NCBI GenBank assembly: GCA_015179045.1
Contig: WHUZ01000038.1
Span: 372,001 to 436,000 of the forward strand
DNA length: 64,000 bases
Origin: Kalaharituber pfeilii
Lineage: Eukaryota > Ascomycota > Pezizomycetes > Pezizales > Pezizaceae
Direction of reading: 5' to 3'
Positions 8,133 through 63,972 of the stretch are shown one piece after another. The notes under the pieces are model-generated. The model had not been told where the DNA came from. It saw only the letters and a program-made list of their open reading frames with translations, and did not search any database. The first letter of the stretch is position 1; every line of letters begins with the position of its first letter. The position numbers were made by a program, and so were the translations under genes.

Positions 8133-8182
8133 TTTTTTTTTTTTTTTTAAATATCATTGATCGCGTGCCGCCCTGTGGGCGA
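8133..8182 (-). mobile_element. LINE tail-only insertion, 50 bp, 11-bp TSD
   Basis: T run, then aatatcattgatcgcgtgcc and the first half of the type 1 hairpin, truncated within it. Flanked by ATAAAATCGAG at 8122-8132 and 8183-8193, an exact 11-bp TSD. Confidence 0.9.
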
Positions 8183-8578
8183 ATAAAATCGAGTGCTAAG
8201 CGACCCGTACGGATACTCCTATATATCTCGAACGTACTACAGGCGGTTACTGTAGTTCTACGTTTTGGTGCAACGGTTTGCGAAACGGTCAGTCGCAACC
8301 CGTAATAGTGTGGAAACAGCGTATCCTCTCTTTTGAGAGGACAATTTTGTAGGGAAAACAGCAGCGTTTTTCTTAGGGGCCTGAGTCAATAGCAATGTAG
8401 CCGCAAAAGTCCACAGGTCTTCAACCAACTCATGCTACTACATCACTAACTGCTAGTAATGAGTAGGATTACTTACTAATATAAGGTTCTATGTCATAAC
8501 AAGCTTAGGCCTTTCTTTGAATTGTAGATGAAAATTCCAATCACTTTGATGTATTCTAGATAGCTATTACCTTTGAGG
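8183..8578. other. No recognisable gene
   Basis: No conserved frame and no match to other repeats in the window was noticed. Confidence 0.4.
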
Positions 8579-8650
8579 TTTTTTTTTTTTTTTTTTTTTT
8601 TGCCCTTTCCCAGTCACATAAGCTACATTCAAGCCACCAGCCTGTGCCAG
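8579..8650 (-). mobile_element. Possible LINE tail, type 3
   Basis: A T run of 23 (8579-8601) is followed by a sequence whose complement (..GGCTTGAATGTAGCTTATGTGACTGG) loosely resembles the type 3 tails at 44337 and 50899. Degenerate, border uncertain. Confidence 0.35.
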
Positions 8651-9081
8651 GAAAAAAATCATTTGAACTACAGTTTTTCATGCCAATCTTTCTAGCGAAG
8701 AAACAGAGTACTTTGCTTACTCTCGAGCCAATAAAATTACGCAGCTCATCCAGCAGATTGAAAATCATCAGGCTCTGCAGGATATACTGAAGTATTACTG
8801 CCTACACTTGCACCTCAATTGCACACCCTCAAAAGGCTCCGCACTGCAAATACATGAGCTCTTGTGCATGTGGAGTAGTGTACACCAAACAGAACTGAGT
8901 ACAGTGCCTCACATGCTAAGAGCAAGATACAGCAAAAAACAAAGACTATTAGCAGTGTAACTGGAATTGGTAAGTGAGTAATATCAGAGAGTGAGATACT
9001 ACAGGAGCTCCAAAGTTTCATTTTTGTTTCCTCATTTGCTCGTTAGTTCAGATCTATTTTTCCATTTTTCGTTTTTTAATC

Positions 9082-9113
9082 TTGTTTTTTTTTTTTTTAT
9101 CAATACTCGCGTG
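9082..9113 (-). mobile_element. LINE tail-only insertion, 32 bp, 11-bp TSD
   Basis: Only a T run plus atcaatactcgcgtg, about 15 nt of the type 1 tail. GTTTTTTAATC is duplicated exactly at 9071-9081 and 9114-9124. It is the shortest insertion I could bound by a TSD in the window. Confidence 0.85.
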
Positions 9114-9180
9114 GTTTTTTAATCAATTGAGTAATCCTGTATTCAAACTAGTAGCACACAGCATGGGCCGATACTTGGTA

Positions 9181-9234
9181 TCGCCATAGCCCACAGGGCG
9201 GTAAGCGATAAATGATATAAAAAAAAAAAAAAAA
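9181..9234 (+). mobile_element. LINE tail-only insertion with full type 1 hairpin
   Basis: tcgccatagcccacagggcggtaagcga hairpin, then ATGATAT and an A run. TTGGTA on both sides (9175-9180, 9235-9240). It begins exactly at the 5' base of the hairpin. Confidence 0.85.
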
Positions 9235-9257
9235 TTGGTAGCCAGTGGGCCTGTAAG

Positions 9258-9592
9258 CACTTAGGTCACCAGCCCACTTGTCTTGCAAAATGCCTGTACC
9301 AACAATCGATCTACCCGCCCCACAGTGTTGGTCCGTGTGTGGAGTGTCATGGCGTAGAGCTGATCGTCTGATGCGGTTTGGGAGCGGCAGGCAGAATCTG
9401 CCTGTCCGGACAGGTTCCGCATGTAGTATACGTTTTCCGGATCCTTCTATAATGAATATGAAGGAGGTAGAGCTAAATTATCTCTTACTTACTTTACTTT
9501 TCATTCTCCTAAAATTATCTCCTATGTACCTAAATCGCCATAGCCCCTAGGACGGCACACGATCACTGATATGTATATATATATAAAAAAAA
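9258..9592 (+). mobile_element. Dispersed repeat R1 ending in a type 1 LINE tail
   Basis: Contains the nested palindromes GGCAGGCAGAATCTGCCTG and CCTGTCCGGACAGG near 9388-9416. Then comes a segment shared with 22090-22145 (gtagtatac, ttttcc, gatcctt, atgaaggagg). The type 1 hairpin at 9534-9563 and an A-rich tail to 9592 follow. Whether R1 and the tail belong to one element is not settled. Confidence 0.5.
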
Positions 9593-9629
9593 GGAGGTGG
9601 GGGTGGCGGCAGACACGGGGTGCCACTGT

Positions 9630-9790
9630 ATGCTGGCTTTGCTGGAACCTGATATTGAAATTTATCGGGAACCCAAGGTTTAACATGGTTACGAACCTTT
9701 GACATTGACCCACAGGGGATGTCGAAAATCGGGTACTAGTAGTGCCATTAGGATATTCTTTAAAGGAGTGTAATAAAATTACCTCGTACT
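9630..9790. repeat. Dispersed repeat shared with 22230-22390
   Basis: The segments tgctggaacctgatatt, aacatggttac and agtgccattaggatattc occur in the same order at 22230-22390. Non-coding. Confidence 0.55.
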
Positions 9791-10081: not shown

Positions 10082-10189
10082 GAAATCTGAGACTTCCACA
10101 GATAAAAATGAGAATTATAATTGTACTTTATTTTCGTGGAAAGAAAGGTACTAGGAGAGCAGTTATCTCACCATTGTTCCAGTTGTGTC

Positions 10190-10260
10190 ATCGCCATAGC
10201 CCCCAGGGCGGCATGCGATTAATGATGAGATAAAAAAAATAAAATAAAATAAAATAAAAT
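10190..10260 (+). mobile_element. LINE tail, type 1, with (TAAAA)n tail
   Basis: Hairpin atcgccatagcccccagggcggcatgcgat with an A-U outer pair, then a microsatellite-like (aaaat)n tail grown from the poly(A). Confidence 0.8.
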
Positions 10261-10319
10261 CCAGTCGCGTGGCGGGTTTACCTGAAAATTTCTGGGACAT
10301 CCACTACTGATATTTTTTT

Positions 10320-11125: not shown

Positions 11126-11382
11126 CACCCCACTCCTGATACGCATACTTCTCACTCAGAGCCTACTTATACTTGCTGCACCTCAACTCAATCAGACCTC
11201 CATCGCAACAAAGCCAGGAAAATATTGGGCTCTATCTGGACTAAGAAACTTGCAGTAGGGTATGAGCCCACTATCATAGTAAAAAGTATATATTGGCATG
11301 GTGATAGCAGTGGCGCTATGGGCTCCAAGATTGGGTGAAGTGGCCAAAAGCAATGGAGAGAGGAGTTCGAGAGGTTGCAATA

Positions 11383-11442
11383 CCTCGCCATAGCCCATAG
11401 GGCGGCATGCGAGTAATGATATAAAAAAAAAAAAAAAAAAAT
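11383..11442 (+). mobile_element. LINE tail-only insertion, 60 bp, 13-bp TSD
   Basis: Starts at the 5' base of the hairpin (ctcgccatag..gcgag), then TAATGATAT and an A run. TSD AGAGGTTGCAATA (11370-11382) versus AGAGATTGCAATA (11443-11455), one mismatch. Confidence 0.88.
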
Positions 11443-11639
11443 AGAGATTGCAATATCAGGCACTTCGTAAGTGCACTAGCATAGTCTAAGAGACAGTTAG
11501 AGCAAAGATTGAGGCCATTACTAGGGTCAGTGAGGGACCTTATAGGAGTAGGGAACCTTTGGCCTGAAAGCTTCAGGGGAGTTGATACCTCAGACCCAGG
11601 CAGGAAAGGTGAGAAGGGGAGGGACTAGTGAGGCTTCAG

Positions 11640-12481
11640 TCTAGGTTATGCCATGTTCAAGAATGATGGATTTGAATCAGTAGCTGGAAAGATTGCCAGT
11701 ACGCTCGAGGTAGATAAGGAGGAAATAATATCATGGAGGTAGACAATTATCCCAGTAGAGCTAGAGGTTATAGACCTGAAGCTAAACAAGGAGGACTCCT
11801 CAACCAAGTGGGAGAAGGCTATAAGAGATGACAAAGATGACTCAGTAGCTATCTTCATAGATGGTAGCCAAAATGAGAAAACAGGAGTACGTAGGTGGTG
11901 GGTGGTGATGGCAGCAGGTGGTGTGATGAAGGCTCAACAGCATCCAATGTCTTGCACAGGCTACCAGTATCTAGAGCTGGCGGAACGAAGTCTCAAGGGC
12001 GGTCTCAATGGTCAAATGTCAAGGAAAGGGTCATAAAGGAAGAGTAATCAATTGTCCTGCCTGTGCGTGTCTGGTCTGTCTGATCTATCCATATCTACGT
12101 ATCCATATCTTGCCCTCCTTGCTTGTGTGCCCATACAGTCCTATCTACATCAATTTATAGACCACCTTCACCTTCCACCTGAGCCTGTACATCCACATCT
12201 CGCTTCTTCAATGTAACTTGCTTCCTGATCCTATGTATATATCATCATATGGCCTTACCGATGAGTACCGCTCCGGGCTGCGTTTGACCTTATTCTTTCC
12301 CTCGGTACTGTGGTTACCACCACAGTGGTAGCAGGTGAGGCAGAGGGGAGCCTTTAGGTCAGCATGAAGGCAACAGTGTGGGATAGTAAAGTTGTAGACA
12401 TGAGGGTGCCCTGGAGGCTGTTGACAACAGGACGAAGGTGCTGCTACTTGCAGACTCTCAGGCAGCTATCAGTACAGGCCA
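11640..12481 (+). pseudogene. LINE ORF2 fragment: RNase H domain, interrupted
   Basis: The frame around 11840 reads SVAIFIDGSQNEKTG, the first strand of an RNase H fold with its catalytic Asp. At about 12395-12480, GALEAV..VLLLADSQAAIS carries the later Glu and Asp strand motifs. Between them lies an unrelated segment including the repeat at 12170-12345. Stops and frameshifts occur. It has the RNase H architecture of the other LINE ORF2 copies in the window (e.g. 28441-29187). Confidence 0.7.
12170..12345. repeat. Dispersed repeat, pair of 19010-19190
   Basis: The pieces acatccacatctcgcttctt, catcatatgg, cttattctttcc and tgtggttaccac recur in order near 19030-19170. It interrupts the LINE RNase H fragment. 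No terminal repeats were resolved. Confidence 0.5.
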
Positions 12482-12733
12482 CATGCGAGTATGAATGGGA
12501 CAGGAGATGGACTGAGTAGACAGGCTTACCCTTTTTTCCTCCCTCCTTTCTCCCTTTGCCTGCAACACAGAGATAGCCACGGGCAGCACATTTTTGGGTT
12601 CTTTTCTTTTCATTTTCCCATCACACTAGCGGGGCTGTGGGTCATTACCGATGAGGTCTTACCTATATTTTTTCCTTTATTTCTTATGTACCTTAAATCG
12701 CCATAGCCCATAGGGCGGCATGCGATTAATGAT

Positions 12734-12761
<28 letters not shown>
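12482..12761 (+). mobile_element. ORF1-only LINE derivative (5'-truncated) with type 1 tail
   Basis: The first codons read CEYEWDRRWTE-stop, the end of the ORF1 domain also seen at 22682-22897 (YEWDR-stop) and 34054-34850. About 200 bp of 3' UTR follows, then the hairpin (12697-12726, A-U outer pair) and an A run of more than 25. No RT or RNase H lies between ORF1 end and tail. TSD weak (CAGGCC on both sides). Confidence 0.65.
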
Positions 12762-12764
<3 letters not shown>

Positions 12765-12765
12765 A

Positions 12766-12890
12766 GGCCCTCAGGCCTTTCCTCCCTAACAGTCTCGTCA
12801 GGGGGCCCACCTGCCACTCTAATCGTTGTAACGGTCTGTGATTCAGGCCCAGCCTTCCTCTCTCCCTAGCCCTGAGGGCATTCGCCGTGA
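12766..12890 (-). pseudogene. LINE RNase H C-terminal fragment
   Basis: Complement encodes RLGLNHRPLQRL..LTRLLGRKGLRAW, matching RLGLSYRPLTRL..LAGILGGKLLRKW of the copy at 25523-26145. Confidence 0.65.
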
Positions 12891-12894
12891 TTTT

Positions 12895-13240
12895 TGTAGC
12901 CGGCTTGGGTCTGTAAGATGTTTTCACCACTCTCAATGCCTTTCTCCTTCCAAAGTGGCCTAGTGCATCATAGGCCAGTGCCAATACCTCTTTCAACATA
13001 TCTTCTGGCAAATAGGTCTTCCGGCCATTGTTTGAATCAAATGAAAGAGAGTCGTCCTTTTCCAGTCTGAAGCCGTCAATCGTTCCGCCTTCTGATAACT
13101 GTGCGAGCTTTTCAAATATATTATCAGGATCAGGACCTTTTCTATACTTACACACTCCCTTATGGAAGGTGAGTTGTTTTCCAACATAGGTGAGAGCTTT
13201 TTTGTCATGCCTTCACATGTGATATACCCCAATCTCAGTT
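12895..13240 (-). pseudogene. Gypsy integrase H2C2 zinc-binding fragment
   Basis: The minus strand reads DGRKTYLPEDMLKEV-like sequence followed by LALAYDALGHFGRRKALRVV. This fits the H..H part of the N-terminal integrase zinc module of Ty3/gypsy Pol (known form: LP..lr..ll..aHd..GHfG..kT...l). Only this fragment remains. Confidence 0.6.
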
Positions 13241-13395
13241 GTCAATATCAGCCAATCTTGGGTTCCGTTCTTTTCTATTTTGAATGTCACCATCAGCTAT
13301 TCTTTTGCTCCTTTCAACTTTGCCCTAGGTGTCAATATCGGCCACTCTTTTGTTCCTTTCTTCTATACCTTCTTTCCAACCCGAATCTCAATATC
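13225..13395. repeat. Degenerate approx. 55-60-bp tandem repeats
   Basis: Three diverged units share tcaatatc(a/g)gcca, tcttttgttcc and ttctttcta-like blocks. Non-coding. Confidence 0.4.
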
Positions 13396-13402
13396 AACCA
13401 TC

Positions 13403-13438
13403 ATCGCCATAGCCCATAGGGCGGCATGCGATTAATGG

Positions 13439-13467
<29 letters not shown>
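13403..13467 (+). mobile_element. LINE tail-only insertion, 65 bp, 10-bp TSD
   Basis: Begins atcgccatag at the hairpin base, A-U outer pair, then A run of about 28. ATCAACCATC at 13393-13402 and 13468-13477 is an exact TSD. Confidence 0.9.
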
Positions 13468-13471
<4 letters not shown>

Positions 13472-13486
13472 ACCATCCCGTTTACA

Positions 13487-13692
13487 ACCTGATTGGCAGC
13501 CAAAACTGGCGCCTTCCTACAGTACCAAGACGAGATAGTCACCGAAGCCGGCATGCGACAACAAGTAAGATCGTGGAGAGCCACGGAACGGAACAGATTG
13601 GAAATCAGCTATAGACCATTACAGCGACTGGGACACAGGGTATCGACCGTAGCAGGAATTTTGGGGGGCAAAGGCCTAAGGCGATGGAAGTA
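13487..13692 (+). pseudogene. LINE RNase H C-terminal fragment
   Basis: Frame reads AKTGAFLQYQDEIVTEAGMR..ATERNRLEISYRPLQRLGHR..VAGILGGKGLRRWKY, the segment just after the RNase H core. It is cut by MITE M1 at 13693, and YELGK continues after the MITE at 14563. Confidence 0.75.
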
Positions 13693-17547: not shown

Positions 17548-18231
17548 AAGTAGTGGGCAGAAATTGAGAAGAGGAGCATTGGGTGCCTGTTCGCATGGTA
17601 TTACATTTACAGCATATGGGTTATATATGGTATAATCTCGCCTATTATATGGCGAAGATATATCCCTTGTGCGCTCCTGACATTTACTTCCTGAGGTTCT
17701 ACGTCGAGATAGTTTCTCTTTTGTTGTTCGTTGTTATATGTATGCAATTCCTTGTTATGCTGCTATGTGAGCTATGGTGATATTACTCTAGGCTTTAAAA
17801 TAGAGCAAATTAAATTTTCATCTATTTTGACTCCTAAAGAACCTTTTGTCCCTACACCTCCATGGCGCTTGTTGCTACCTCCATCACTGGAGACAACAGC
17901 ATTCCAGTTCGACCAAGGGATAGGTCAGTTCACAAGAATAGACAAAACCCAAGCCGCTTAAGCCCCCCTCCCCTCCGCTATCACCTCTCAATCATAAAAC
18001 TCACACCTCCCCCTCCACCATGTCTCAACTGTACCCCCATCTAGCAGCTGCAGCAGTAGCTCGACCCCTTCCCTCCCCCTTCAGCCAGCATCTTCACTCG
18101 CTCCGCCATCAGCCCCAGCTGCTCATAAAGCCCCTGCCATTAGTGGCTCCGACAGCCCTCCAGCAGCTGCTCCAAACAGTCACTCCAACAAGCTGTCCAA
18201 CATCTTCCTCCAACAGCCCTTATAGTTCCCT
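17548..18231. other. 3' flank of the secreted gene, no gene recognised
   Basis: AT-rich first, then a Pro/Ser/Gln-biased CT-rich stretch (17950-18220) whose frames are open through composition alone. Confidence 0.4.
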
Positions 18232-18296
18232 GTTTTTTTTGTTTTTTTTTAAAAAAAAATATCTTTAATCCCATGGTGCCCTGTGGCCTATGGCAT
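18232..18296 (-). mobile_element. Degenerate LINE tail, type 1
   Basis: T-rich then A-rich tract followed by tatctttaatcccatggtgccctgtggcctatggc, a decayed reverse type 1 hairpin. Confidence 0.5.
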
Positions 18297-19662: not shown

Positions 19663-21768
19663 CTACCACGCATCTTCGTACTCATCCCAGCCATCGTTTT
19701 CATGGCAACTCTCCATGTCCCATATAGCCGTCGCATCGATGTTGAGCCCTTCCCGTGCCTTCCGTAGATACACATCCCAACCGCAACACTCTCTCACCCG
19801 TTGCAGGATGGCCTCATCATGCTGCATGAGTGTAATCTGTTTGGGGACAGGCCAGGCACCAGGTGCATCCAGCAGGAGATGAAGGAGAAGGTCGTAGAAT
19901 GCTGGGAGGGGGAGCTGGTTGAGAGCTGATGCGAGAGAGGTGTCATTGTCGGGATCTTCACATGAAGGGATACAACCAGGGGGCATTGTATGAACAGTGC
20001 TGCCGTCAGGGTGAGCTGGCTCGGCTCTGGGGAATATATCAGTGCCCTCGATTGCGGAATGGTGGGTGTGGTCGCTGGAGACTACGCGACTGCCGTTCAG
20101 AGAGCCGTAAGTACTGTCCGCAGGGACAGAGCCACGATGCAACTCAGAGGCTGCAGGGGGCAATGCTCCATTGGCTGGTGGGTGCACCGAGCGGTTGTTC
20201 CCCCCAGCGGAGGTGGTCCCAGGTGTTGTGGGAAGGGTGGGGTCGGAGCGGCCGGGATTCACAAGGGGGCTTCGTGAAGGCAGCATGCGGTATGTGGCAG
20301 CCGGCACCGGCCTGGGTGCAGCTCCCGCTCTCACCTTCTTCAGTGGCCGTGGAGGCTTCGACAGCGCAGAGAGCGTTTCCCGTAAGGGTGTATCCATGCC
20401 CACGGAGGCTAACAGGCGCCACACGAGGGCGCGGACTGCTAACAGATCAGGTGCAGGGAGTGCAAGCTGCCCCGGCGCCGGTGTGTGAAGTCGAAAGCGC
20501 GAACCATCGTCGAACGCATGAACCTCAGTCAAAGTGCGCTCCAACGCTACGGGGACCGCTTCTGACTCGGTTTCAATAGTATCCGGCATGGAAAGAGAGA
20601 CCTGTTCAACCGGCAGGTGGGGCCACAGGGTATGGAGGGGCCATAGGGTAGGGAGATGGACTCTTGCGCTGGACGCACTTGCGATTGCAGGCGATATGCT
20701 TTCCGGAGCTGCCCCACGCCGCAGCATATGGTGCTTCATCACCTCCGATGCAGAGTCTCCGACAAGCATGGCTTCAACGTCGTAGTAATATATACCGTAA
20801 GCATGTCGCTCCTCGTCATTCGCAGGCACAGGTAACCGGCACACTGGCAGCAACTGCAGCTGCCCCTTGTCGAACATGGTGTGTAATGCAGGGTTGATCA
20901 AGATGCCATTGGGCAATAGGCGTTCGCACATATCTACTGCATCGGGCCAAACGGAGGACCCGTCACCACCTTGCTGAGCCCCCGATGCAATATTGAAGAT
21001 GATATCGCGCACCGACTCACTGAGGAAAAAGGCCAGAAACTGCCATGCGTAACCTTCTATACGGCGGGGTCCGTAAAGAAGTGAGTACGGAATGATATGA
21101 GCATTGTCTAGCGGCGAGGTTGTGGCACTCAGCGCGCAGACTCCCTGACGGGCGACAAGAAGAGCAGAGAGCCCTGATGGTGTATGGTCGATTCGGGGGG
21201 CAGCACCTCCCGCAGCAGCAAGTAGTGGTGGCGGCAAGGGTGAAGAAATTGAGAAGGCGTTGTAGAGCGGCGCTAGCCATGGCAATCTCGGAGATTGTTC
21301 ATCTTGCGCATCAGCTGGGTGCTCGTCTGCTACAGATTGCCCCTCCTCGTTGGCGACGGCAACTGCAATGGCGGGGGTCTCCTCCTCCGCTGTCCTTTTC
21401 GCGCTGCTAGTACTCGTTCCGCTTCCGGCACTTTGCGGGCGGCTATCAGAGTCTGTCACTCCATGGGATCCCCTACCCCCCCAGCTGCGAAACGACTCTA
21501 GCCCGAGCAGCGCTACAACAGAAAGTGAAGAGAGCTCCTCGCGGCCCAGATGTGCCATTACTGTAAGAGTGTCAGCACATGGCGTGTTCTCCGCGATAGC
21601 AGCAAGCAGCGGCCGCCGGCGGAGTGCACGCCCAGATCCCGAGCATATGTTGTTTAATGCGAGATTGAGGAGGTCGGGGTGATTGAGACGAGCAGGAGTG
21701 AGCAGCTGATGTGCCAAGGCGAGACCCTGTGGGATGATGTCGGAGGTAGCAGCAGGTGATGCTGACAT
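19663..21768 (-). CDS. HNH-endonuclease-domain protein (intact copy)
   Basis: Single 701-aa frame on the minus strand, no intron needed. The HNH domain (PF13391-like, HNH_2) lies at about residues 215-310: CALSATTSPLDNAHIIPYSL supplies the first His, and NGILINPALHTMFDKGQLQL supplies Asn and the last His. A YYDVEAMLVGDSASEVMKHH stretch follows. Residues 400-600 are Pro/Ala/Ser-rich and probably disordered; the acidic C-terminus is ENDGWDEYEDAW. Fungal proteins with this domain are usually of unknown biological role; DNA cleavage is expected from the motif only. Two broken paralogues lie at 213-1125 and 35053-35860, and the region behind the gene (22400-22978) is also duplicated behind the third copy, so whole blocks were copied. 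Start at 21768 is the longest choice. Confidence 0.85.
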   Translation of the reverse strand: MSASPAATSDIIPQGLALAHQLLTPARLNHPDLLNLALNNICSGSGRALRRRPLLAAIAENTPCADTLTVMAHLGREELSSLSVVALLGLESFRSWGGRGSHGVTDSDSRPQSAGSGTSTSSAKRTAEEETPAIAVAVANEEGQSVADEHPADAQDEQSPRLPWLAPLYNAFSISSPLPPPLLAAAGGAAPRIDHTPSGLSALLVARQGVCALSATTSPLDNAHIIPYSLLYGPRRIEGYAWQFLAFFLSESVRDIIFNIASGAQQGGDGSSVWPDAVDMCERLLPNGILINPALHTMFDKGQLQLLPVCRLPVPANDEERHAYGIYYYDVEAMLVGDSASEVMKHHMLRRGAAPESISPAIASASSARVHLPTLWPLHTLWPHLPVEQVSLSMPDTIETESEAVPVALERTLTEVHAFDDGSRFRLHTPAPGQLALPAPDLLAVRALVWRLLASVGMDTPLRETLSALSKPPRPLKKVRAGAAPRPVPAATYRMLPSRSPLVNPGRSDPTLPTTPGTTSAGGNNRSVHPPANGALPPAASELHRGSVPADSTYGSLNGSRVVSSDHTHHSAIEGTDIFPRAEPAHPDGSTVHTMPPGCIPSCEDPDNDTSLASALNQLPLPAFYDLLLHLLLDAPGAWPVPKQITLMQHDEAILQRVRECCGWDVYLRKAREGLNIDATAIWDMESCHENDGWDEYEDAW

Positions 21769-24469: not shown

Positions 24470-24800
24470 CTACAACGGACCCGCCCACCCGCCAACCGGT
24501 ACAATCAGCATTCATGCCTTCCATTGGCCTGCCTGCTTCTGATGCATCATCCTCTTCAGCTCCGACGCCCTCCTCCGATGCCGCCGACTTTGTCACCCGC
24601 CTGCAAGCTTGGGAAAATAAGCCCATGCCTGACAATTCAACTGAATTCCAGACGTATCGACAGGAAATCTCCGATCTCGCGAATGCTGTGAATGCTAGAG
24701 GCACCTCGCTGCAGGACGAACTCACCCTTGCCCAACACCAGATCAAGGAGCTCCAAGATCAGCTAGATGCTGCCATTGACCAACAATCAGTGCTACAGAC

Positions 24801-25174
24801 TGTCGGAACATTACATCCGTTGCCACCTGTTGCTATTATTATTGTTCTCTGTTATTGTGTCGTTCCACTCATGCATTTAACCTCGCTATTGGATTATGTA
24901 TGAATACGCCACAACGCCAGCTTTTATGTGGCTTACGCCACGGCGTTCTCTTGCAAGCCACGCATCCCGTGCCTTTCTCACCTTTCCTGATATGATATCT
25001 TCCCTGATGATTTCCTATTCAGTCATGGTTCACAAGTCACGTTATGCTATGCTTTCTCATGTATATAAACCTGCTGTTCTTGCGACTCTACGTTTAATAG
25101 ACTTAACGGTATCTCTATACTTCTATAGCCCTCACCGTGACAAAGCAGCCCTCGCAGACCCTCCCGCTCGTATA
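24801..25174 (+). repeat. Copia solo LTR, TSD CAGAC
   Basis: TGTCGGAACATT..CGTATA, nearly identical to the LTRs at 2667-3041 and 7554-7928 (a couple of base differences and one indel noticed), in plus orientation. TSD CAGAC at 24796-24800 and 25175-25179. Product of LTR-LTR recombination inside gypsy gag. Confidence 0.95.
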
Positions 25175-29187: not shown

Positions 29188-30027
29188 AAGCCTCGTCCAT
29201 TAGCCTGCGGCCTAACCGCCAAATCTAGTCAATCATCGGCGCGAATTATTTCTAGAATTGGGCAAGCGTCCTCTGACAACGGGCCGATGATTTTGCTCAA
29301 TGAAATGTCGATTTTTATGCCCATTTTCCTCCATAGTCTTCTAAAGGTGACAAAGACTACATTGATGCCAAGCATTAGAATTTAAATGGTGATATTACCG
29401 GGATGGGCTTCTACAAGCTGTTACTCAATACCAAGATCGGCTATAGCAAAACCAAATATCCGCAAAATCATAGTGAATGATCCGCATGGATCCAATTGAC
29501 AGTTTTAGCACTTGTTGGGTAATTAATCTTTTGGGTGCCTTATGCCTTATTATCCAACTAAGTGAGAGATATTGATTTCTTCTGCACGTCAACGGAATAA
29601 ATCTTTTACTTTGCATTTGTAGAGGCAGACATGGTAGGCATAATGATAAAGTTCCTCTCCACTGGGGCCTTGGCTCTCTCCTCTGTGCCCTTCACGGAAA
29701 AAATGCCTGGAAATTTCATGACACCTGGAAATCCCAGTAGTGCATGCGCATTCCTCTTTTATATACTGGCCGAACTAGTACGGAATTTTGAACAGCGCCG
29801 AAGGATACGAAATATGCACAAATAAAAATGAAAGAAGTGTTGCACTTATGACTCCTTCGTTTTAAGCAGGTGACGAATACCCTGCGCTCGACCGGCGGTA
29901 AAGTTCTTGGCGCCGGACCCTGGCATTTCCCCGCTTTCTCCGTATGACGTGGGCGCATCGTGTTGGCTTACGGTGTTCCAAGTTCTGATACCAACTTCCT
30001 CACAGTCTTGCATATACGGCAAACAAC

Positions 30028-31294: not shown

Positions 31295-31322
31295 TGCTTT
31301 TTGGTCAATGGGGGTTCAATGA

Positions 31323-31402
31323 TTGTTTTTTTTTTTTTTTTTTTTAATATCATTACTCGCGTGCCGCCCTAGGGGCTATGGCGAGGGTTTATTAAAGGAA
31401 TA
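31323..31402 (-). mobile_element. LINE tail-only insertion, 80 bp, 12-bp TSD
   Basis: TSD GGGGTTCAATGA at 31311-31322 and 31403-31414. Type 1 hairpin plus about 20 nt of UTR. The same insertion is present in copy B, so it predates the duplication. Confidence 0.88.
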
Positions 31403-39248: not shown

Positions 39249-39278
39249 TGCTTTTTGGTCAATGGGGGTCCAATGATT

Positions 39279-39312
<34 letters not shown>

Positions 39313-39365
39313 TCATTACTCGCGTGCCGCCCTAGGGGCTATGGCGAGGGTCTATTAAAGGAATG
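39279..39365 (-). mobile_element. LINE tail-only insertion, copy B
   Basis: Same insertion site as 31323-31402 but with a longer T run. Type 1 hairpin ctcgccatagcccctagggcgg..gcgag on the minus strand. Confidence 0.85.
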
Positions 39366-43863: not shown

Positions 43864-43905
43864 ATGCCCTGCCATGGCGAACAGCTGCAAGCGGGGTTAC
43901 GTGAC

Positions 43906-43944
<39 letters not shown>
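43864..43944 (+). mobile_element. LINE tail-only insertion, type 2, 81 bp, 10-bp TSD
   Basis: ccctgccatggcgaacagctgc aagcggggttacgtga, then A run of over 30. TSD CCCTCGTGGC at 43854-43863 and 43945-43954. Confidence 0.9.
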
Positions 43945-44336: not shown

Positions 44337-44724
44337 TTTTTTTTTTTTTTTGACCACTTAAGCCCACCCACATACAGGTTTCCAGCTTATGACAGGGAAA
44401 AAACACTAGCTCAGCCGTGGTATACTTGGAGGAAGAGACCGAAATTCAGAGAGTGCGGTTGGGAGGGAAATGGTTGAGGGTATGCAAATACTAGTCGGAC
44501 AGGCGTAGGAAATAGGACTCGTCGACTTGTTGTCTTTGTCTTTGTTTTTGTTACCTGCATCATCATCACACACCGCGGGCCCCACTAGTGCTTACTTTTC
44601 GTTTCTTTCCCCTACACACAGGAGGATCGGGGATCTCTACTTAAACTATTTATCTATTTCCTTCTTTTATTTCATATGTAACTAAATCTCGCCATAGCCC
44701 TTGGAGCGGCATGCGAGTAATGAT

Positions 44725-52753: not shown

Positions 52754-52826
52754 TTTTCTTTTTTTTTTTTTTTTTTTTTTTTTTAAGTCACATAACCCCG
52801 CTTGTAGCACGTGGCCATGGCAGGGT
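52754..52826 (-). mobile_element. LINE tail-only insertion, type 2, 73 bp, 11-bp TSD
   Basis: TSD GATGTGGAGAT at 52743-52753 and 52827-52837. T run, then aagtcacataaccccgcttg..gccatggcaggg. Confidence 0.9.
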
Positions 52827-53464: not shown

Positions 53465-53600
53465 GTGAGTACATTTAAAGAACAGTATATATAGTGAAGA
53501 ATGCGTTTAAGCAAGAGTACATATAGTGAAGAGTACGTTTGAGTAAGATTACATATAGTAAAGAATACGTTTGAGCATGAATACATATAGTGTGGTATGC
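53465..53600 (+). repeat. About 31-bp tandem repeats in element X
   Basis: Repeats of gagtacatatagtgaagaa plus tacgtttgagca with variation, four to five units. Confidence 0.6.
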
Positions 53601-53625
53601 GGGCTCAGGTTCAATACATATATTG

Positions 53626-54575
53626 TGTCACGGCCCGCTCCCTACAGTCTCCGTACACTAAGCCACGACCGCCGGCAAGCCACGACCGCCGGCAAGCCAC
53701 GACCGCCGGCAAGCCACGACCGCCAGCAAGCCATGACCACCAGCAAGCCATGACCGTATCCCGCCTCCCAGTATAGCCCGCCTGCCAGTATGGCCCGCCT
53801 GCCAGTATGGCCCGCCTGCCAGTATAGCCCGCCTGCCAGTATAATCCACCTGCTAGTATAGCCCGCCTGCTAGTATAGCCTGCCTGCCAGTACGACCCGC
53901 CTGCTAGTATAGTCCGCTTGCTAGTATAGCCCGCCTGCCAGTACGACCCGCCGGCTAGTATAGCCCGCCGGCTAGTATAGCCCGCCTGCTAGTATAGCCC
54001 GCCTGCCAGTACAGCCCGCCTGCTAGTATAGCCCGCTCACCAGTACAGCCTGCCTGCTAGTATCGCCGCCTGCCAGTATCGCCCGCCTGCCAGTATCGCC
54101 CGCCTGCCAGTATCGCCCGCCTGCCAGTATCGCCCGCCTGCCAGTATCGCCCGCCTGCCATGAAAACTCTGCCTTCGCTACTCTGTTCTTACTGCTGCCC
54201 TCGTCGCTGCTTCTACCTTTGTATTATGCTTCTTAGGTAATAAACCTATCATGTATATATAGGCTCTATCTTGCCCTCATGTAAATAGTTCCTTCTCTCC
54301 TTGTCTGTTGTCTTGTCTCCTTAATAGACCCATATGGTTCCTCGCAGTATATATGTTCTTGTTATTCTTGTCAATCCCTAGATCCAATTCAGTACTTGGT
54401 CTTCTCTGCCTTTTCACCATAGCCTGCCATCGCCGTTGAACTGGAACCGCTGAACTGCTCCTGTCAAACCTCTCCTGTCAAGTTTGTCAGGCTTCTGCCA
54501 TTCAGCGCTTGCAAAACTACTGTTACCCTGAACCGGTCGTATCCCTTAGCAGCACCAGCTTGCCGCCGCGTGACA
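53626..54575 (+). repeat. Gypsy solo LTR, 950 bp, TSD TATTG
   Basis: TGTCACGGCC..CGCGTGACA with TATTG at 53621-53625 and 54576-54580. Same family as the LTR at 23952-24469; nearly twice as long because of internal minisatellites. Confidence 0.85.
53655..54165 (+). repeat. Two adjoining 17-bp minisatellites inside the gypsy LTR
   Basis: First gcaagccacgaccgccg, about five to six units (53670-53757); then cccgcctgccagtatag, about 24 units (53758-54160). Unit length is 17 in both. Spacerless, so not a CRISPR array. Confidence 0.9.
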
Positions 54576-55324
54576 TATTGGCTCGGGGAGAGATATATAA
54601 TGCATATATCGGATATACTGCAAATTATACATTGTAGGTTTGTTGTATTGGATTTTCAATTGTATTAATGTATTAAGATATAGCATACATATAAATAATG
54701 AGGTATAAGCAAGCAAAGCTGATACTAATCATACAATAATTGGGTATATGCTTATTCACATATTAACATTCATCGTTATAACCAGCTTCATTTCTATTAT
54801 GCATGCATAGGAATCTCCTAAAGTTTGGTTACCTAAATAGGACTCAGTAGTTAGAAAGGATAGAACAACTCACCGTTATCTTTAGATTACAAGTTTTATG
54901 CATGCTGGGGCTACACTTTTTTGGAACGATGTTATTCTAGCCTCTCATCCATGCATGACTGTAGAAGTTATGGAAGAATAGTTGCACCATTTGATAGTGG
55001 AGAGAAGGCGATGGGGAGAATGGTTGCGCCAACGGACAGTTGAGAGAAGGTGATGGGGAGATAAATGGGCTGACGGGGAGGGGATGGACTCCAGTGTGAA
55101 GCAAAGAACTCTTATATATCCTGTGCAGTAGAATTAGTTAGTTGGAATCTTTCATTGCAGTAATGATGTACTTACGTGCCAGAGTCTTTTTGCTAGAATA
55201 AGATAGAAAGGATCTAAAAGTTATATAGAATGAGATAATTATTAGCTATTGTATAGAACATCATTGCAGAGCAAAAACTTACTCAAATTTGCTCAATGAC
55301 ATTGGCTATTTGGCTTAAATAGTA

Positions 55325-55575
55325 GGCTCAGAACGGAGGGTCTGTAATAGGCTCAGAACGTAGGGTGATAGACTTAGAACGTAGGCCTATAATAGGCTCA
55401 GAATGGAGGGCTGTGATAGGCTCAGAATGTAGGGGGATAGGCTCAGAATAGAGGAGGATAGACTCAGAACGGAGGGCTGTAATAGGCTTCAGAATAGAGG
55501 AGGATAGACTCAGAACGGAGGGCTGTAATAGGCTTCAGAATAGAGGAGGATAGGCTCAGAACGGAGGCCTATAAT
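55325..55575 (+). repeat. Imperfect tandem repeats of aggctcagaacggaggg type
   Basis: About ten units of roughly 20-25 bp (ataggctcagaacggagggctgta). The same motif occurs two to three times at 23880-23951 in copy 1. Confidence 0.75.
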
Positions 55576-55984: not shown

Positions 55985-57726
55985 GTATATTACCACCAGT
56001 CATTTTCCTGATATGGCTGGCGCCGATGCTAGAGGATTTGGAGGAGACGCTGAGGAGGGAGTGCCCGGGGGTAGAGTGCGAAGTCCCGTCGTACGTAGAC
56101 GACATCAATGTGACGGCATGGGACTGGGAGGGGGAGGTGGATCAAGAGAGACTGAGATTTTTTTTTTTTTTTTTTTTTTTTCTTTCATTACTCGCATGCC
56201 GCCTAAAAGGCTATGGCGAGGTATAAGTAAACTGCCTAACTATCCAACTAGGTACAAGAGAGTGTCTGAAACAAGGGAGGGATGTCTGACGCATGGTGTC
56301 GAGCCCGTCTAAACCCTTTTCCTGTCTGGCTCGTACACCTCCGACTTCAACCATTTCCCGCCAAGCCTGACCTTTCCGGGCTCCACCTTTGTCTTCGTGT
56401 ATAAGACTATGGAGCTAGCCGTCTTGCCTTCTTCGTCAAGTGTCTGCTTCCGTCGCAACCATCGGATGCCCGATGTCTTTTTGTCTAGGGTCTGGTTGTC
56501 TTCCTCAAGCCATTTTCTCACCTTCTCCAAGTTTCTCCTGGTGGCGACGCCATGGATGACGATGCCTGTGGTTTGGGGAGAGGGACGGCTGTGTGTCTGG
56601 CTTCGGGGGCGTGATGGTGCTTGGGGTTGTTTTTGTCGTGGTGCAGGGGTGGGAGTTGATGTCGGTTCGGGTGTTGGGGAGGCTGGGGAGACCTCCCGAG
56701 AGAGACTGAGAGTGAAGTTGGGTGGTATAACGGGAAGAGTGGCAGAAAAATGGGGAGTACCGCTGGAGAAAACGAAACACGAAGATATAGTCTTCGGCAA
56801 GGGGAAGAGAAGAAGAAAGGAGGTGGAGAGAGTGAAATGGCTAGGAGTAATTTTCGACTCGACTCTAGACTTCGACTTCCATTGGAAGGCGAGGATAGAG
56901 AAGGCGAGAAAGCTCACGGGAGCCATGATGGGGGTGGGCGCGGGACAGTGGGGGATGAGCCCACGGAGCTGGCGACAGCTATACACGGGGATGATCAGAG
57001 CGGTGATGATGTGGGGGTCGGAGATAGGATGGAGGGGACAGAAAGACTGGAGAAGGGAGATGGAGAAGATTCAGTACCAGGTACTGAAGAAAGCCACGGG
57101 CGCTGTCCACGGGGCAGCAATTCACAGAAGGGGGCTGCGGCAGAAGTGGAAACGACTGCGCGCGGCGGAGAGGAAAGAAAGGGTGTATGGGGGGGGCGTG
57201 GTGATGGAGTGGAGAAGGGGAGCGGCAACGGCGTTCACGAGGTTGAGAACGGGAAAGGGGATGGGGAAGGAGTGGGAAGTGGGGATTGGGAAAGCGATGG
57301 AGGGGAGTGTATGTGGGTGCGGGGAAAAAACAAACAGCGGACCACCTGGCGTTCAGGTGTGAGGAGGTGGAGTACCTGGAAGGATGGGGAAGGTGGGAGG
57401 ATATCGATGATAAGAAATGGAGGGTAGAGCAGGAGAACGGGGAGGTGGTGAACGTGCTAGGGGAGTTCTTCGGATCGCTGAAGGTGTAGGGGAGGGGGTG
57501 TTTTTTCGTTTGTTCGAAGGTGGCGGGGGAAGAAAGATGTAGCTATTTTTATTGCCTCGAGGAGGTGGGGCGGGGAGGGGTCGAGGATTTCGTTTGTAGA
57601 GATGGCGGGGGAAGAAGTAGGTAGAAAAGCCTGCCTCCGGGCTTTGAGGGTCGAAGACCCAGGGGCCCTGCCTTGGCGAGCAGCCGCACGCGGGGTCATG
57701 TGATATAAAAAAAAAAAAAAAAAAAA
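55985..57726 (+). pseudogene. LINE ORF2: reverse transcriptase to C-terminus, type 2 tail
   Basis: 5'-truncated inside RT at VIFLIWLAPMLEDLEETLR; catalytic box VPSYVDDINVTAWD follows. After the nested insertion (56158-56698) it continues ERLRVKLGGITGRVAEKWGV, VERVKWLGVIFDSTLDF, KARKLTGAMMGVG, then frameshifts (a run in the second frame) to QTADHLAFRCEEVEYLEGWG and stop at 57487. UTR, a type 2 hairpin with paired changes (ccctgccttggcgag..cgcggggtcatgtga) and poly(A) end it. It shows that type 2 tails belong to ORF2-encoding LINEs. Confidence 0.88.
56158..56698 (-). mobile_element. ORF1-only LINE derivative, 541 bp, 13-bp TSD
   Basis: TSD AGAGAGACTGAGA at 56145-56157 and 56699-56711. Minus-strand frame open to the stop near 56309: Pro/Thr/Ser-rich linker, TTGIVIHGVATRRNLEKVRK, SGIRWLRRKQTLDEEGKTAS, VRLGGKWLKSEVYEPDRKRV. 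Short UTR, type 1 hairpin with U-A inner pair, poly(A). Inserted in antisense within a LINE RT. No ORF2 of its own. Confidence 0.93.
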
Positions 57727-58060: not shown

Positions 58061-58124
58061 CCCCAAGCCCTGCCATGGCGAACAGCTGCAAGCGGGGTTA
58101 CGTGAAATAAAAAAAAAAAAAAGA
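58061..58124 (+). mobile_element. LINE tail-only insertion, type 2, 64 bp, 7-bp TSD
   Basis: ccctgccatggcgaacagctgcaagcggggttacgtga (in two blocks) plus A run; AAGTCAC at 58054-58060 and 58125-58131. It begins a few bases before the hairpin. Confidence 0.82.
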
Positions 58125-58699: not shown

Positions 58700-58701
58700 T
58701 A

Positions 58702-61256: not shown

Positions 61257-61429
61257 TGTTGAGCTTTGGGTAGAAAGAGATGATTGTTCCTTCGTAGAGA
61301 GAGTAGCCAAAGTAATACACCTATATACATAGAGCATGAGGTTGCTCTCGGGCCCTTACCACCCTTTATCACGGACCTCTCTGATATCCGACACCTCCGA
61401 CACTCCGACATTACTGTAGATCTCTAACA
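61257..61429 (-). repeat. 3' LTR of the TRIM
   Basis: 173 bp, minus strand TGTTAGAGATC..AGCTCAACA. Confidence 0.92.
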
Positions 61430-61559
61430 CACCCCCTCAACCGAAATGCTTTAGCCAAACACAAGACGTAATACAGAACTGTTGACCTCGATAAAAACCT
61501 TTCCAGTGCGAAAACCCTGTGGGACAAAAACGCATCGTGGTAGGGAAAAAGAGTGTTCA

Positions 61560-61600
61560 ACACAGACAAGACAGACAAGACAGACAAGACAGACAGAAAG
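61560..61600. repeat. (GACAGACAA)n microsatellite in the TRIM
   Basis: Four to five units of acagacaag within the TRIM interior. Confidence 0.7.
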
Positions 61601-61973
61601 ACAAACAGCTCCACTCAACTAGAGTGGACTCATCACCTCACTGAGGTGGGACTTACTACTTGACCCAAGTAGGCGACTTGTTCAACTAGAACAGTCTCAT
61701 CACTTCACAGAAGTGGGACGTATGTACTACCCGACCCGAGTAGACAGGCTCAACTAGAGCACACTGCTTCGCTCAACTAGAGCATGTGCAGACACATCAT
61801 CACTTCACTGAAGTGGAAACATAGACATTGTATAGGAGGAAAGGAGGACGTAAAAGGAGTAGGTAGGAACAGGAGTACGACAGAGGAATTCTGAGTGCGA
61901 CGACGACTGCGACTGTAATGGTAATGCGACTTGAATGCGGCTTGGCTATATGGCACTATCCGGGCTCATAACC

Positions 61974-63003
61974 TGTTGAGCTTTGGGTAGAAAGAGATGA
62001 TTGTTCCTTCGTAGAGAGAGTAGCCAAAGTAATACACCTATATACATAGAGCATGAGGTTGCTCTCGGGCCCTTACTGTAATTCACCACCAAGCGGGCCA
62101 CACCGGCAATCGGGACACCTTCGTCACCAAAACTGCACAACTTTCGCACTCAATATCTCAACAACCACAACAGCATTTGTTAATGTGCTTTATGTAGATA
62201 GCAATCAAAGGGTCATTCTTGGGATCTAGCACTTGTGCCTGCTCAAAAAGTGTAGATGTGAAGGAATTATGGCTTGTCGCATTTCCATAAGAAGGCTTGG
62301 CATTTATTTGCATGGGATGCCCATGCAAAATGTTCGCAAGACTAGAATGTAGTCCTACTCTTCAACGCTAATTACATTACGTATAATATTATATGTCAAG
62401 AGTCATCTGAAGAGCCATAGTAAGGTGGTGTATTAATTTGGCTTAATCTGTTGAACTGTAGATTTGGCAACACAATTTATCTACTATGGGGGGTTGTTCT
62501 CATACAAACGCTCTCTATGGGAGTATGCTATTGTGAAAAATCTCACAATCACTACAGGTATTACCTAATTATGTTGCCCATATATTCCTAATAAGCGATC
62601 CTGTTGCATGTGAGTGTCAGGATTTTTTTAATGTATTTATTGCAGGTGTAGCATACAGAATTCGATACCGGTGGCACTTGTATGGGCATCCCATACAAAT
62701 AAATGCCAAGCCTTCTTATGGAAATGCGACAAGCCATAATTCCTTCGCACCTACAATTTTTGAGCAGGCAAAAGTGCTAGATTGCAAGAATGGCCTTTTG
62801 GTTAATACCTACATAAAGCACATTAAGAAATGCTGGTGTGGTTGTTGAGATATTCAGTGCGAAAGTTGTGCAGTTTTGGTGAGGAAGGTGTCCCGATTGC
62901 CGGTGTGGCCCGCTTGGTGGTGAATTACAGTACCACCCTTTATCACGGACCTCTCTGATATCCGACACCTCCGACACTCCGACATTACTGTAGATCTCTA
63001 ACA
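61974..63003 (-). repeat. 5' LTR of the TRIM, split by MITE M3
   Basis: 61974-62075 plus 62933-63003 make 173 bp, exactly the length of the other LTR once MITE and one TA are removed. Confidence 0.93.
62076..62930. mobile_element. MITE M3, 855 bp, long inverted repeats, TA TSD
   Basis: CTGTAATTCACCACCAAGCG.. and its complement at the right end; TA at 62074-62075 and 62931-62932. The two arms stay alignable in inverted orientation for about 250 bp (e.g. tatggcttgtcgcatttcc near 62267 and ggaaatgcgacaagcc near 62720), so it can fold back. No ORF. Confidence 0.92.
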
Positions 63004-63008
63004 AAAAC

Positions 63009-63812
63009 AACTACCACTCACCATTCCGATGAAGAGGATGAAGAAGAGCTACCTCTTGTTTCTGTAATACCAAACCCTCTCAGGAGTACTGCGCGCTCGT
63101 CCCCTGTGACCTCCTACTCCTCGAACTTCAATCCTCTTCCCTCTACCTGGTCCAATAAATGTCTAAATCAACTCGAAGTTTGCCAGGCCCTCCATAACAT
63201 TGTGTCGCCTCCTGAAGATGCCCCCGTGATGGCCTGGCCACTACCACTACGTACTACCATTTCTCCAATTTTTCTCAGCTAGAGCACTGGCCTCGCCCCC
63301 CTGGCGTACTGCATGCATTCCCCCCCACAGCACATGCTTGGGCAGGAGATGGCGGTGTAGATTTGCCTCCATTTTGCAGTCCCGATACTTGTTAGCCTGC
63401 TCGACACGTCCCTACGAGATTAGGCCTTTTCCGAAAATATGTGTTCAGTTCATCTCCCAGTCCACCTGTAACCATCCCAGTTGGTACTCTGGCCTCTTGA
63501 CCCCTGATACCAACACTTCTCTTTTCCCTTTGTCCGGACTGTATCCCTCTTTTCTTTCCTCATCCTTTAATCTCCCATAATCGTTGCTTGCTGTTTTTCT
63601 GCGCTTCGCGAAGGATGTGTCTGATATGACTTTGTGCATATCATCTCCATATGGTCACCTCATCTCCCTATGACAGCTGCATCTACAACTGGCTTGATTC
63701 CCATCAAGAAGACGACTGGCGATAGGGTGAGCTTTCAGGTGTCTCATCTGTCATTGTAGCACCGTCTCTGTTCCTCCCGTCCCAGCTCTGGCTGGTGGTA
63801 GGCGGTGGAAAC
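63009..63812 (+). other. Interrupted open frame and gene-less DNA
   Basis: A frame from before the TRIM insertion point to 63280 (SDEEDEEELPLVSVIPNPLR..NQLEVCQALHNIV) looks protein-like and acidic, possibly a retroelement Gag/ORF1 or a host exon. The rest shows nothing. Confidence 0.35.
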
Positions 63813-63909
63813 CGTCTATGAAGTCTAATACTTGAGTAATCCAACGTTTTCTCAACTCCAAGGTTGGATTACTCAAGTATTAGACTATCCAACGTTTTCT
63901 CAACTCCAA
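63813..63909. repeat. Inverted and direct repeat
   Basis: gtctaatacttgagtaatcc and its complement ggattactcaagtattagac flank gttttctcaactccaag, which is then repeated directly (tccaacgttttctcaactcc twice). Confidence 0.8.
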
Positions 63910-63912
63910 GGT

Positions 63913-63972
63913 ACCTCGCCATAGCCCATAGGGCGGCATGCGAGTAATGAAATTAAAAAAAAAAAAAAAAAA
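63913..63972 (+). mobile_element. LINE tail-only insertion, 60 bp, 13-bp TSD
   Basis: Starts two bases before the type 1 hairpin (ctcgccatag..gcgag, C-G outer pair), then TAATGAAATT and A run. TSD TCAACTCCAAGGT at 63900-63912 and 63973-63985. Confidence 0.92.

Follow-up and report, generated by a model that had tools for sequence, protein, structure and literature searches.

According to the available parts of the published reports, one strain of Yarrowia lipolytica carries 104 fragments of the LINE Ylli, which range from 30 bp to 1 kb and have poly(A) tracts (PMC5014426), and in the MINE/MGL elements of Magnaporthe reverse transcription breaks off at favoured sites that have predicted hairpins close by, and the direct repeats measure 10–20 bp (PMC2104539). 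The 3′ stem-loop of ZfL2 is bound by its cognate ORF2 protein (PMC4176376), and a plant L1 lineage has a 3′ stem-loop with compensatory changes (PMC3747384). For L1 inserts with recurrently truncated U3, 5S and tRNA halves, it has been proposed that cleavage of the RNA, ahead of reverse transcription, determines the ends (PMC13174262).

The tail-only inserts presented here are poly(A)+ insertions of two LINE 3′ tails, with TSDs. They resemble Ylli in being many short 3′ fragments of a fungal LINE with poly(A), but differ in that no TSDs were identified in Ylli, and a pile-up at a hairpin is not reported in the available part of that study (PMC5014426). They resemble MINE/MGL, likewise a fungal LINE, in that reverse transcription ends at preferred, hairpin-associated points, whereas the site described there is GCC*A/U, the RT jumps to another RNA, and the MGL parts measure 230 to 5461 nt (PMC2104539, available part). 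With the stringent-type tails of UnaL2, ZfL2-1/-2 and the plant L1 lineage they share a short 3′ stem-loop (PMC4176376, PMC3747384); they differ in belonging to other LINE clades and in having a tail-only class that starts at the hairpin base, which the available parts of those reports do not describe, and binding of the hairpin by protein would here be by analogy. In the inserts with U3, 5S or tRNA, mammalian L1 is joined to a host RNA, whereas here the LINE's own tail stands alone (PMC13174262, available part). In the literature searched, in which subscription journals were poorly covered, we found no report of a 3′ hairpin with LINE insertions piled at its 5′ base.

Tail-only insertions in the window

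The window is the whole 64,000-nt stretch of Kalaharituber pfeilii DNA analysed (GCA_015179045.1, contig WHUZ01000038.1, positions 372,001–436,000, forward strand). Flanks were inspected for all 11 intervals named in the original prediction, and all 11 proved to be real insertions of a tail plus poly(A); most had been said to have a TSD of 10–13 bp, and 9 of the 11 have one of at least 10 bp. The list of at least eleven was correct as given, but it missed three tail-only copies. It also assumed a single tail family, and there are two: tail 1 at eight of the listed sites and tail 2 at the other three (43864, 52754 and 58061). The insertions are as follows.

330–378, minus strand: tail-1-only, absent from the original prediction; begins with TCGCC, at the base of the hairpin; short, ill-defined TSD; empty paralogue site near 20065
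825–871, minus strand: tail 1; starts in the hairpin loop; TSD GCGYGAACCGTC, 12 bp with 1 mismatch; empty paralogue site at 20496–20508
~1292–1347 (ends approximate), minus strand: tail-2-only, absent from the original prediction; TSD imperfect
8133–8182, minus strand: tail 1; starts at the inner stem (GCCC); TSD CTCGATTTTAT, 11 bp; 5′ junction with 2 extra nt
9082–9113, minus strand: tail 1; starts in the hairpin 3′ half (CACGCGAG); TSD GATTAAAAAAC, 11 bp
9181–9234, plus strand: tail-1-only; starts at the hairpin base; TSD TTGGTA, 6 bp
~10189–10260, plus strand: tail-1-only, absent from the original prediction; imperfect TSD CCAGTYGYGT by eye, none resolved by the strict finder
11383–11442, plus strand: tail-1-only; starts CCTCGCC; TSD AGAGRTTGCAATA, 13 bp with 1 mismatch
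13403–13467, plus strand: tail-1-only; starts ATCGCC; TSD ATCAACCATC, 10 bp
31323–31402, minus strand: tail 1; starts 13 nt beyond the hairpin base; TSD TCATTGAACCCC, 12 bp (16 bp with 1 mismatch)
43864–43944, plus strand: tail-2-only; TSD CCCTCGTGGC, 10 bp
52754–52826, minus strand: tail-2-only; starts at the first base of the extended stem; TSD ATCTCCACATC, 11 bp
58061–58124, plus strand: tail-2-only; TSD AAGTCAC, 7 bp exact, or 13 bp with 2 mismatches, which puts the start at the stem base
63913–63972, plus strand: tail-1-only; starts ACCTCGCC; TSD TCAACTCCAAGGT, 13 bp, with a second TSD copy 46 nt upstream

With the nearer TSD copy, the 63913–63972 insert starts at 27 nt; the upstream repeat would give 73 nt. 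Empty sites had been described as seen directly. Among the eleven this holds for 825–871 only, and it holds in addition for 330–378; no empty site was found for the other ten. A paralogous segment (20059–20759) lacks both of these inserts, and the alignments that flank the 825 insert overlap there by 13 bp, at 20496–20508. The 31323–31402 insert and a copy at ~39280–39360 are probably one insertion event, because both sit in a duplicated segment (29716–32116 and 37664–40044, 94% identical).

Matches to the hairpin core far exceeded chance. With up to 7 mismatches allowed the window has 24, whereas five base shuffles gave 0.2 per strand; with up to 2 allowed the genome has 7,426, and the reversed control none. 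The exact 3′ end of tail 1 occurs at 3,132 places in the genome and that of tail 2 at 1,101. An apparent strand bias of tail 1 on one contig (C2) came from the way the matches were listed: tails on both strands were recovered with a second pattern, and one place (L121) has an exact minus-strand hairpin that had been left off the first list. Searched against Rfam for known RNAs including ribozymes, the whole window gave no family at gathering score, and on 11300–13600 every one of the eight matches lay far under it.

Two LINE clades with different 3′ hairpins

Tails 1 and 2 are the 3′ hairpins of two LINE clades whose ORF2 proteins are 29% identical. Both ORF2s contain the Pfam endonuclease, RVT_1 and RNase_H domains, and by this domain content both LINEs are probably Tad-like. 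LINEs and tails were paired by the position of the tail behind ORF2. In two LINE-A copies the C terminus is followed by tail 2 at a distance of 119 nt (L072) and 150 nt (L069), and tail 1 lies 71–224 nt behind the last aligned residue of LINE-B, in the set of matches that reach residue 1057 or beyond with a tail in range (L018, L032, L038, L071, L081, L098, L109, L113, L115, L123, L124 and two window copies). The inserts thus have the features of LINE 3′ end products, namely a tail that lies directly behind ORF2, poly(A), and TSDs of the type left by target-primed reverse transcription (TPRT).

Inserts begin at the pair that closes the tail-1 stem. Among 143 unselected copies this pair is C-G 88 times and A-T 43 times (131 of 143 together), and the inner closing pair is C-G in 118, T-A in 19, T-G in 4 and C-A in 2. 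The outer and inner closing pairs covary in an alignment of 30–32 hand-chosen rows, of which 6 of 32 were picked for a U-A variant. In these rows 98.5% of cells are paired, and both sides are changed in 21 cells versus 7.3 in shuffles, with none of 500 shuffles as high; the numbers of doubly changed pairs (2 versus 2.0) and of pair types (4 versus 4.6) show no excess over shuffles. In the hand-chosen rows, tail 1 therefore has the 3′ stem-loop with compensatory changes that marks stringent-type tails.

Insert starts peak at the hairpin base

Insert 5′ ends were mapped for the first 100 listed of the 3,132 tail-1 places, of which 59 had a resolved TSD and 41 did not; in 19 of the 100, flanks were short (mostly ~200 nt upstream), so that longer inserts are undetectable there. 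The 59 ends are strongly non-random. They fall at 0–9 nt (n = 11), 10–22 nt (n = 1), 23–28 nt (n = 21), 29–73 nt (n = 1), 74–200 nt (n = 16) and 201–650 nt (n = 9), with all 25 of the longer inserts within 74–581 nt. The 0–9-nt bin includes one start at 0 (L026) that is ambiguous owing to a nested tail, and the 201–650-nt bin includes two inserts (L094 and L101, 350 and 353 nt) whose 23-bp matches may be repeats rather than TSDs. A smooth decay of lengths that lacks a peak at 30–80 bp, the outcome that would have spoken against the original prediction, was not seen over these 100 of 3,132 places.

The main peak comprises 21 of the 59 starts, at −2/+3 nt of the hairpin 5′ base, or 22 with one deletion variant, the lone insert in the 10–22-nt bin, which has a deleted inner hairpin and still starts at the base. 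A smaller class (11 of 59) starts in the hairpin 3′ half. Starts at or near the 5′ base had been claimed for several of the window inserts, and the pile-up there is confirmed; the inserts at 825, 8133 and 9082, however, begin inside the hairpin, and that at 31323 begins 13 nt past its base. The end of the insert seems to be fixed by the stem or its sequence and not by a constant distance from the poly(A), because two copies that have lost inner hairpin bases (L112 and L107) still begin at the stem base.

Tail 2, which has a different stem, behaves in the same way: 11 of 16 sites with a strict TSD start at its own stem base (23–28 nt), 6 of these exactly where the extended stem begins. This set was drawn from the 30 of 52 motif rows retained at a poly(A) score of at least 8, and 2 of the 11 sites are window sites already in the original prediction. 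Independently of TSDs, homology past the hairpin base is absent in 32 of 33 tail-only copies (score ≤7.5) and present in 34 of 38 longer copies (score ≥8.5). When flanks were shuffled between sites (84 sites, 829 pairings), a TSD-like match with a score of at least 9 and within 40 nt of the tail arose in 1.4% of pairings, a null that is slightly lenient in that it omits the finder's poly(A) extension.

Templates, stalling or release

For the ends at the 5′ base, templates that end there, or release of the RT there, are more likely than stalling. We give roughly even odds to an account in which the 5′-base peak reflects hairpin–poly(A) remnants used as templates for LINE TPRT and the 3′-half starts reflect RT stalling. 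LINE RNA would decay and be trimmed up to the hairpin, leaving a hairpin–poly(A) RNA with its 5′ end at the base, and the hairpin may be held and protected by LINE protein, by analogy with other LINEs that have a recognised tail. The LINE machinery would then insert this RNA by TPRT, and the 3′-half starts would arise where the RT stalls on meeting the folded stem. Because the RNP would insert the remnant just as it does a whole LINE RNA, this suggests that a hairpin of ~40 nt with its poly(A) would suffice for insertion in vivo. The original prediction had offered abort of reverse transcription just after the hairpin; that idea keeps some standing, but the class that most clearly resembles stalling starts in the hairpin 3′ half, and the data are explained no less well by a template that is a hairpin–poly(A) remnant of LINE RNA.

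A 5′–3′ exonuclease tends to halt some nucleotides upstream of an RNA structure. For starts flush with the stem (0–3 nt), a trimming endonuclease or a protein roadblock fits better than such an exonuclease.

Release of the RT is a plausible but less favoured explanation, and it predicts DNA ends identical to those of a remnant template. LINE protein would grip the hairpin, and once the stem had been melted and copied the anchor would be lost, so that some enzymes would drop off at the 5′ base and the rest would carry on for at least ~50 nt. The peak is alike in two clades, and only 1 of 59 inserts falls at 29–73 nt versus 5.7 expected from the 74–200-nt density (P about 0.02), as if enzymes were either released at once or processive; in other LINEs, a tail stem-loop is bound by ORF2 (PMC4176376, available part), which would be the analogous grip. 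Release would be needed, however, at a point where the stem is no longer ahead of the RT, and the stalling-like stops sit in the 3′ half. Junction microhomology, found at 12 of 30 tail-only inserts (27% expected by chance) and at 6 of 17 longer ones (the 17 of 34 with a usable relative), does not discriminate run-off from abort.

A third possibility is a minimal SINE, a dedicated short gene for a hairpin–poly(A) RNA that LINEs mobilise in trans. The start point is discrete, the copies are numerous, and a LINE tail is commonly shared by SINEs (PMC3747384, available part). We nevertheless consider it improbable. Among 33 tail-only copies, the 41-nt hairpins show no clonality when compared with 109 others (the ambiguous start at 0 being excluded): the mean nearest-neighbour distance is 2.70 to each other versus 2.62 to size-matched others, and the 33 copies have 11 different triloops, so that neither a clonal master nor descent from a few short-form source loci is seen. 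The 1–3 nt that precede the stem are often similar to sequence found upstream in LINEs (ACCT, ACAT), and the effect is present in two tails. The short hairpin RNA put forward in the original prediction as a minimal SINE is hence unsupported if taken strictly, as one short master. Each tail-only copy is made up of the LINE hairpin and poly(A). These copies have the look of usual TPRT products derived from the ends of LINE RNAs rather than one clonal SINE, because their hairpin diversity equals that of LINE-borne hairpins and their TSD lengths match those of longer inserts (mostly 11–14 bp in 33 tail-only inserts versus 10–14 bp in 26 longer ones; Mann–Whitney P = 1.0).

Trimming at the DNA level, in which single-stranded cDNA would refold and a 3′-flap nuclease would cut at the hairpin base before joining to the target, predicts stem-flush ends in both families, but longer inserts would have to be spared; we regard it as very doubtful. 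Although LINEs in general are often 5′-truncated, random truncation or a matching artefact can be given practically no weight: 21 of the 34 inserts that start within 73 nt share one 6-nt bin (binomial P = 4e-15), the shuffled-flank control gives about 1–2%, and the TSD-independent homology test points the same way.

Implications for LINEs and SINEs

Truncation of LINEs at the 5′ end is usually regarded as nearly random. The truncation point here tracks RNA structure, and it does so in two LINE clades whose hairpins differ. The two classes of start, in the 3′ half and at the 5′ base, distinguish RT stalling from a boundary set by the template or by release. More speculatively, and with a small chance of being correct, the LINE RNAs of two clades may give rise to a discrete small RNA, a ~40-nt hairpin plus poly(A), that moves recurrently in its own right. 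It would perhaps be the smallest of retroposons, and an initial stage in the making of a SINE from a LINE tail. The inserts amount to a deletion series made by nature, with a bearing on the minimal requirements of a SINE and on SINE origins; the tail-only inserts may hint at SINE beginnings, and they suggest how little RNA LINE insertion needs.

Two tails from two LINE clades

The original prediction treated eleven inserts of a LINE 3′ hairpin and poly(A) alone (tail-only copies) as one tail family; two tails are in fact present. Eight of the eleven sites carry tail 1, with the consensus [C/A]TCGCCATAGCCC-NNN-GGGCGGCANGCGA[G/T]TAATGATAT-poly(A), and the three beginning at 43864, 52754 and 58061 carry tail 2, with the consensus [A/G]CCCTGCCATGGCGAACAGCTGCAAGCGGGGTTACGTGA-poly(A) and variants of it. 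Folded examples share a general shape and differ in their stems. Tail 2 belongs to LINE-A, whose ORF2 C-terminus lies 150 nt (locus L069, 1220 aa) or 119 nt (locus L072) before it, and tail 1 to LINE-B, a diverse clade in which 71–224 nt separate the last aligned residue from the tail (locus L071, 1083 aa, and relatives). The two ORF2s are 29% identical and each include endonuclease, reverse transcriptase (RT) and RNase H domains; from this domain content, we provisionally label both LINEs Tad-like. A tail-2 variant with a different inner hairpin occurs in two further loci (L003:525 (−); L025:2375 and 2922 (−)), with CCCTGCCATAGGCYGGTAGYCTGTATGCGGGGTTACG in L003 and at L025:2922, and its architecture recalls tail 1.

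Upstream of many tail-1 copies, about 116–200 nt before the hairpin 3′ arm, a conserved ORF comes to its C-terminal end:

L069:5792–6112, conserved-ORF C-terminal end
Window 56315–56566 (−), conserved-ORF C-terminal end
Window 32121–32309 (+), conserved-ORF C-terminal end
Window 44393–44512 (+), conserved-ORF C-terminal end

This ORF matched no Pfam family and gave no significant match in a comparison with LINE-A ORF1. Possibly it represents another protein-coding element making use of the LINE-B tail.

Target-site duplications and empty sites

Flanks of all eleven intervals were read directly. Target-site duplications (TSDs), predicted at most sites, are evident, with direct repeats of 6 bp or more at 11 of 11 and of 10 bp or more at 9 of 11. 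The claim of empty sites holds for 825–871 and for one unlisted copy, and thus for a single site among the eleven:

~330–378, tail-only copy, inside a segment with a paralogue at 20059–20759

The paralogue lacks both this insert and 825–871, which lies in the same segment, and at 825–871 the flank alignments share a 13-bp overlap in it, as expected of a TSD. Tails inserted in or beside older tails form nested hairpin–poly(A) stacks (loci L035, L085 and L026; window 18225–18290). A 701-aa protein encoded in the window has its single database match, at 84% identity, in Kalaharituber pfeilii, which makes a relative of this desert truffle (family Pezizaceae) the likely source. The window also contains several diverged tandem arrays, clustered at 53467–55575 (periods 16–64, 17, 42 and 21–90), an additional copy of a copia-flanking 376-bp repeat at 24797–25174, and the copia element itself:

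3049–7452 (−), copia-type retrotransposon ORF, 1467 aa, open, with identical 376-bp flanking repeats at 2666–3041 and 7553–7928

Insert starts cluster at the hairpin 5′ base

We searched the genome (78 Mb, 360 contigs) by the tail-1 3′ end alone, so that sites were not picked by their 5′ end; 3,132 exact matches were found, and none with the reversed control. The pattern requires an intact 3′ end and so favours young copies. The first 100 places listed, all on contigs C1 and C2 and not a random draw, were all recovered, with a search depth of at most 650 nt everywhere and a short flank (about 200 nt upstream for most) at 19. Among the tail-1 matches on C1 (2.99 Mb) listed by a separate, hairpin-based search, 4 of 42 lie beyond the first 550 kb, which suggests that this contig is split into repeat-rich and repeat-poor parts.

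Insert 5′ ends in tail 1 (100 places; zero, 3′-arm GCGA; hairpin 5′ base, 25)
0–9 nt: 11
10–22 nt: 1
23–28 nt: 21
29–73 nt: 1
74–200 nt: 16
201–650 nt: 9
Unresolved: 41

The predicted clustering of starts at the hairpin 5′ base is thus seen in 21 places, against 0.76 expected from the 74–200 nt density (Poisson P = 3 × 10⁻²³); of the 34 inserts that begin no farther out than 73 nt, 21 do so at these six positions (binomial P = 4 × 10⁻¹⁵). The inserts at 0–9 nt, of which L026 is ambiguous, begin in the hairpin 3′ half. The sole 10–22 nt start (L112, 18 nt) belongs to a hairpin whose inner part is missing and which starts at its stem base. Copies in the window and at loci on other contigs, though not sampled for that purpose, fit this pattern; two window copies outside the sample, 825 and 8133, begin at the loop and the inner 5′ arm.

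Tail 2, with 1,101 exact 3′ ends in the genome, behaves similarly. Its sites were unselected by-catch in the window and fetched loci, 30 of 52 motif rows having a poly(A) score of at least 8. A strict TSD was found at 16 of the 30, and 11 of these start at 23–28 nt, including two sites of the original prediction and six that begin exactly where the extended stem does. The others are a deletion variant starting at its own base (L107, 16 nt), one at 31 nt and three at 221–509 nt. Stops in the 3′ arm would go undetected here, because the search motif includes it.

With shuffled flanks, and without the finder's extension into poly(A), matches scoring at least 9 arose in 1.4% of 829 pairings (84 sites) when limited to 40 nt, and in 2.7% at any distance. 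Independently of TSDs, each of 140 full-hairpin sites was checked for upstream homology to the rest. No homology extended past the base (score 7.5 or less) in 32 of 33 TSD-defined tail-only copies, the exception being L026, whereas it did (8.5 or more) in 34 of 38 longer inserts. Scores were below 9 in 24 of 69 unresolved sites, and some of these 24 may be tail-only copies whose TSDs have been lost. TSD length did not differ between 33 tail-only and 26 longer inserts (Mann–Whitney P = 1.0).

The tail as a hairpin

Tail 1 is predicted from its sequence to be an RNA hairpin. In a hand-picked set of 32 copies (30 distinct; six taken for carrying the U-A variant), standard pairing holds for 98.5% of the cells of a nine-pair structure. 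At the outermost position C-G occurs 18 times, A-U 11 times and U-G once; the inner closing position has C-G in 20 copies and U-A in 10. Of 143 unselected copies, 88 have C-G and 43 have A-T at the outermost position, while the inner one is C-G in 118, T-A in 19, T-G in 4 and C-A in 2. The hand-picked set has 21 cells changed on both sides, where shuffles give 7.3 and none of 500 reaches 21, a signal from two pairs that may represent few events; in the same alignment, neither the double-change pair count nor the pair-type count exceeded shuffles.

Source and mechanism

A minimal SINE, in the sense of one short master gene, is disfavoured: tail-only hairpins are as varied as those of other copies (mean nearest-neighbour distance 2.70 among 33, versus 2.62 to size-matched sets of 109 others; 11 triloops among the 33), and the 1–3 nt that separate the TSD from the stem are often similar to what lies upstream in LINEs (ACCT, ACAT, CACCT; exceptions L075 and L105).

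Starts in the hairpin 3′ half are what an RT would leave on meeting the folded stem; the main 5′-base peak, lying past a fully copied hairpin, is not what such stalling leaves. At that peak, either the template would have ended at the hairpin base or the enzyme would have let go there. As the shortened hairpins L112 and L107 still start at the stem base, the boundary seems, in these two copies, to be set by the stem rather than by distance from the poly(A). Junction microhomology does not discriminate between template end and enzyme release, being low in tail-only inserts (any in 12 of 30, versus 27% expected) and longer ones (6 of the 17 with a usable relative, out of 34) alike. In human L1 it is described as common where the 5′ end is truncated, and as no more than chance predicts where the element is full-length (PMC2912911). 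The explanation that we favour is that protected hairpin–poly(A) remnants would serve as templates, with RT release at the hairpin 5′ base close behind. Our preference rests on the binding of this element described for the ORF2 proteins of other LINEs (PMC4176376), and on reports that RNA fragments with a pre-cleaved look are inserted by L1 (PMC13174262).
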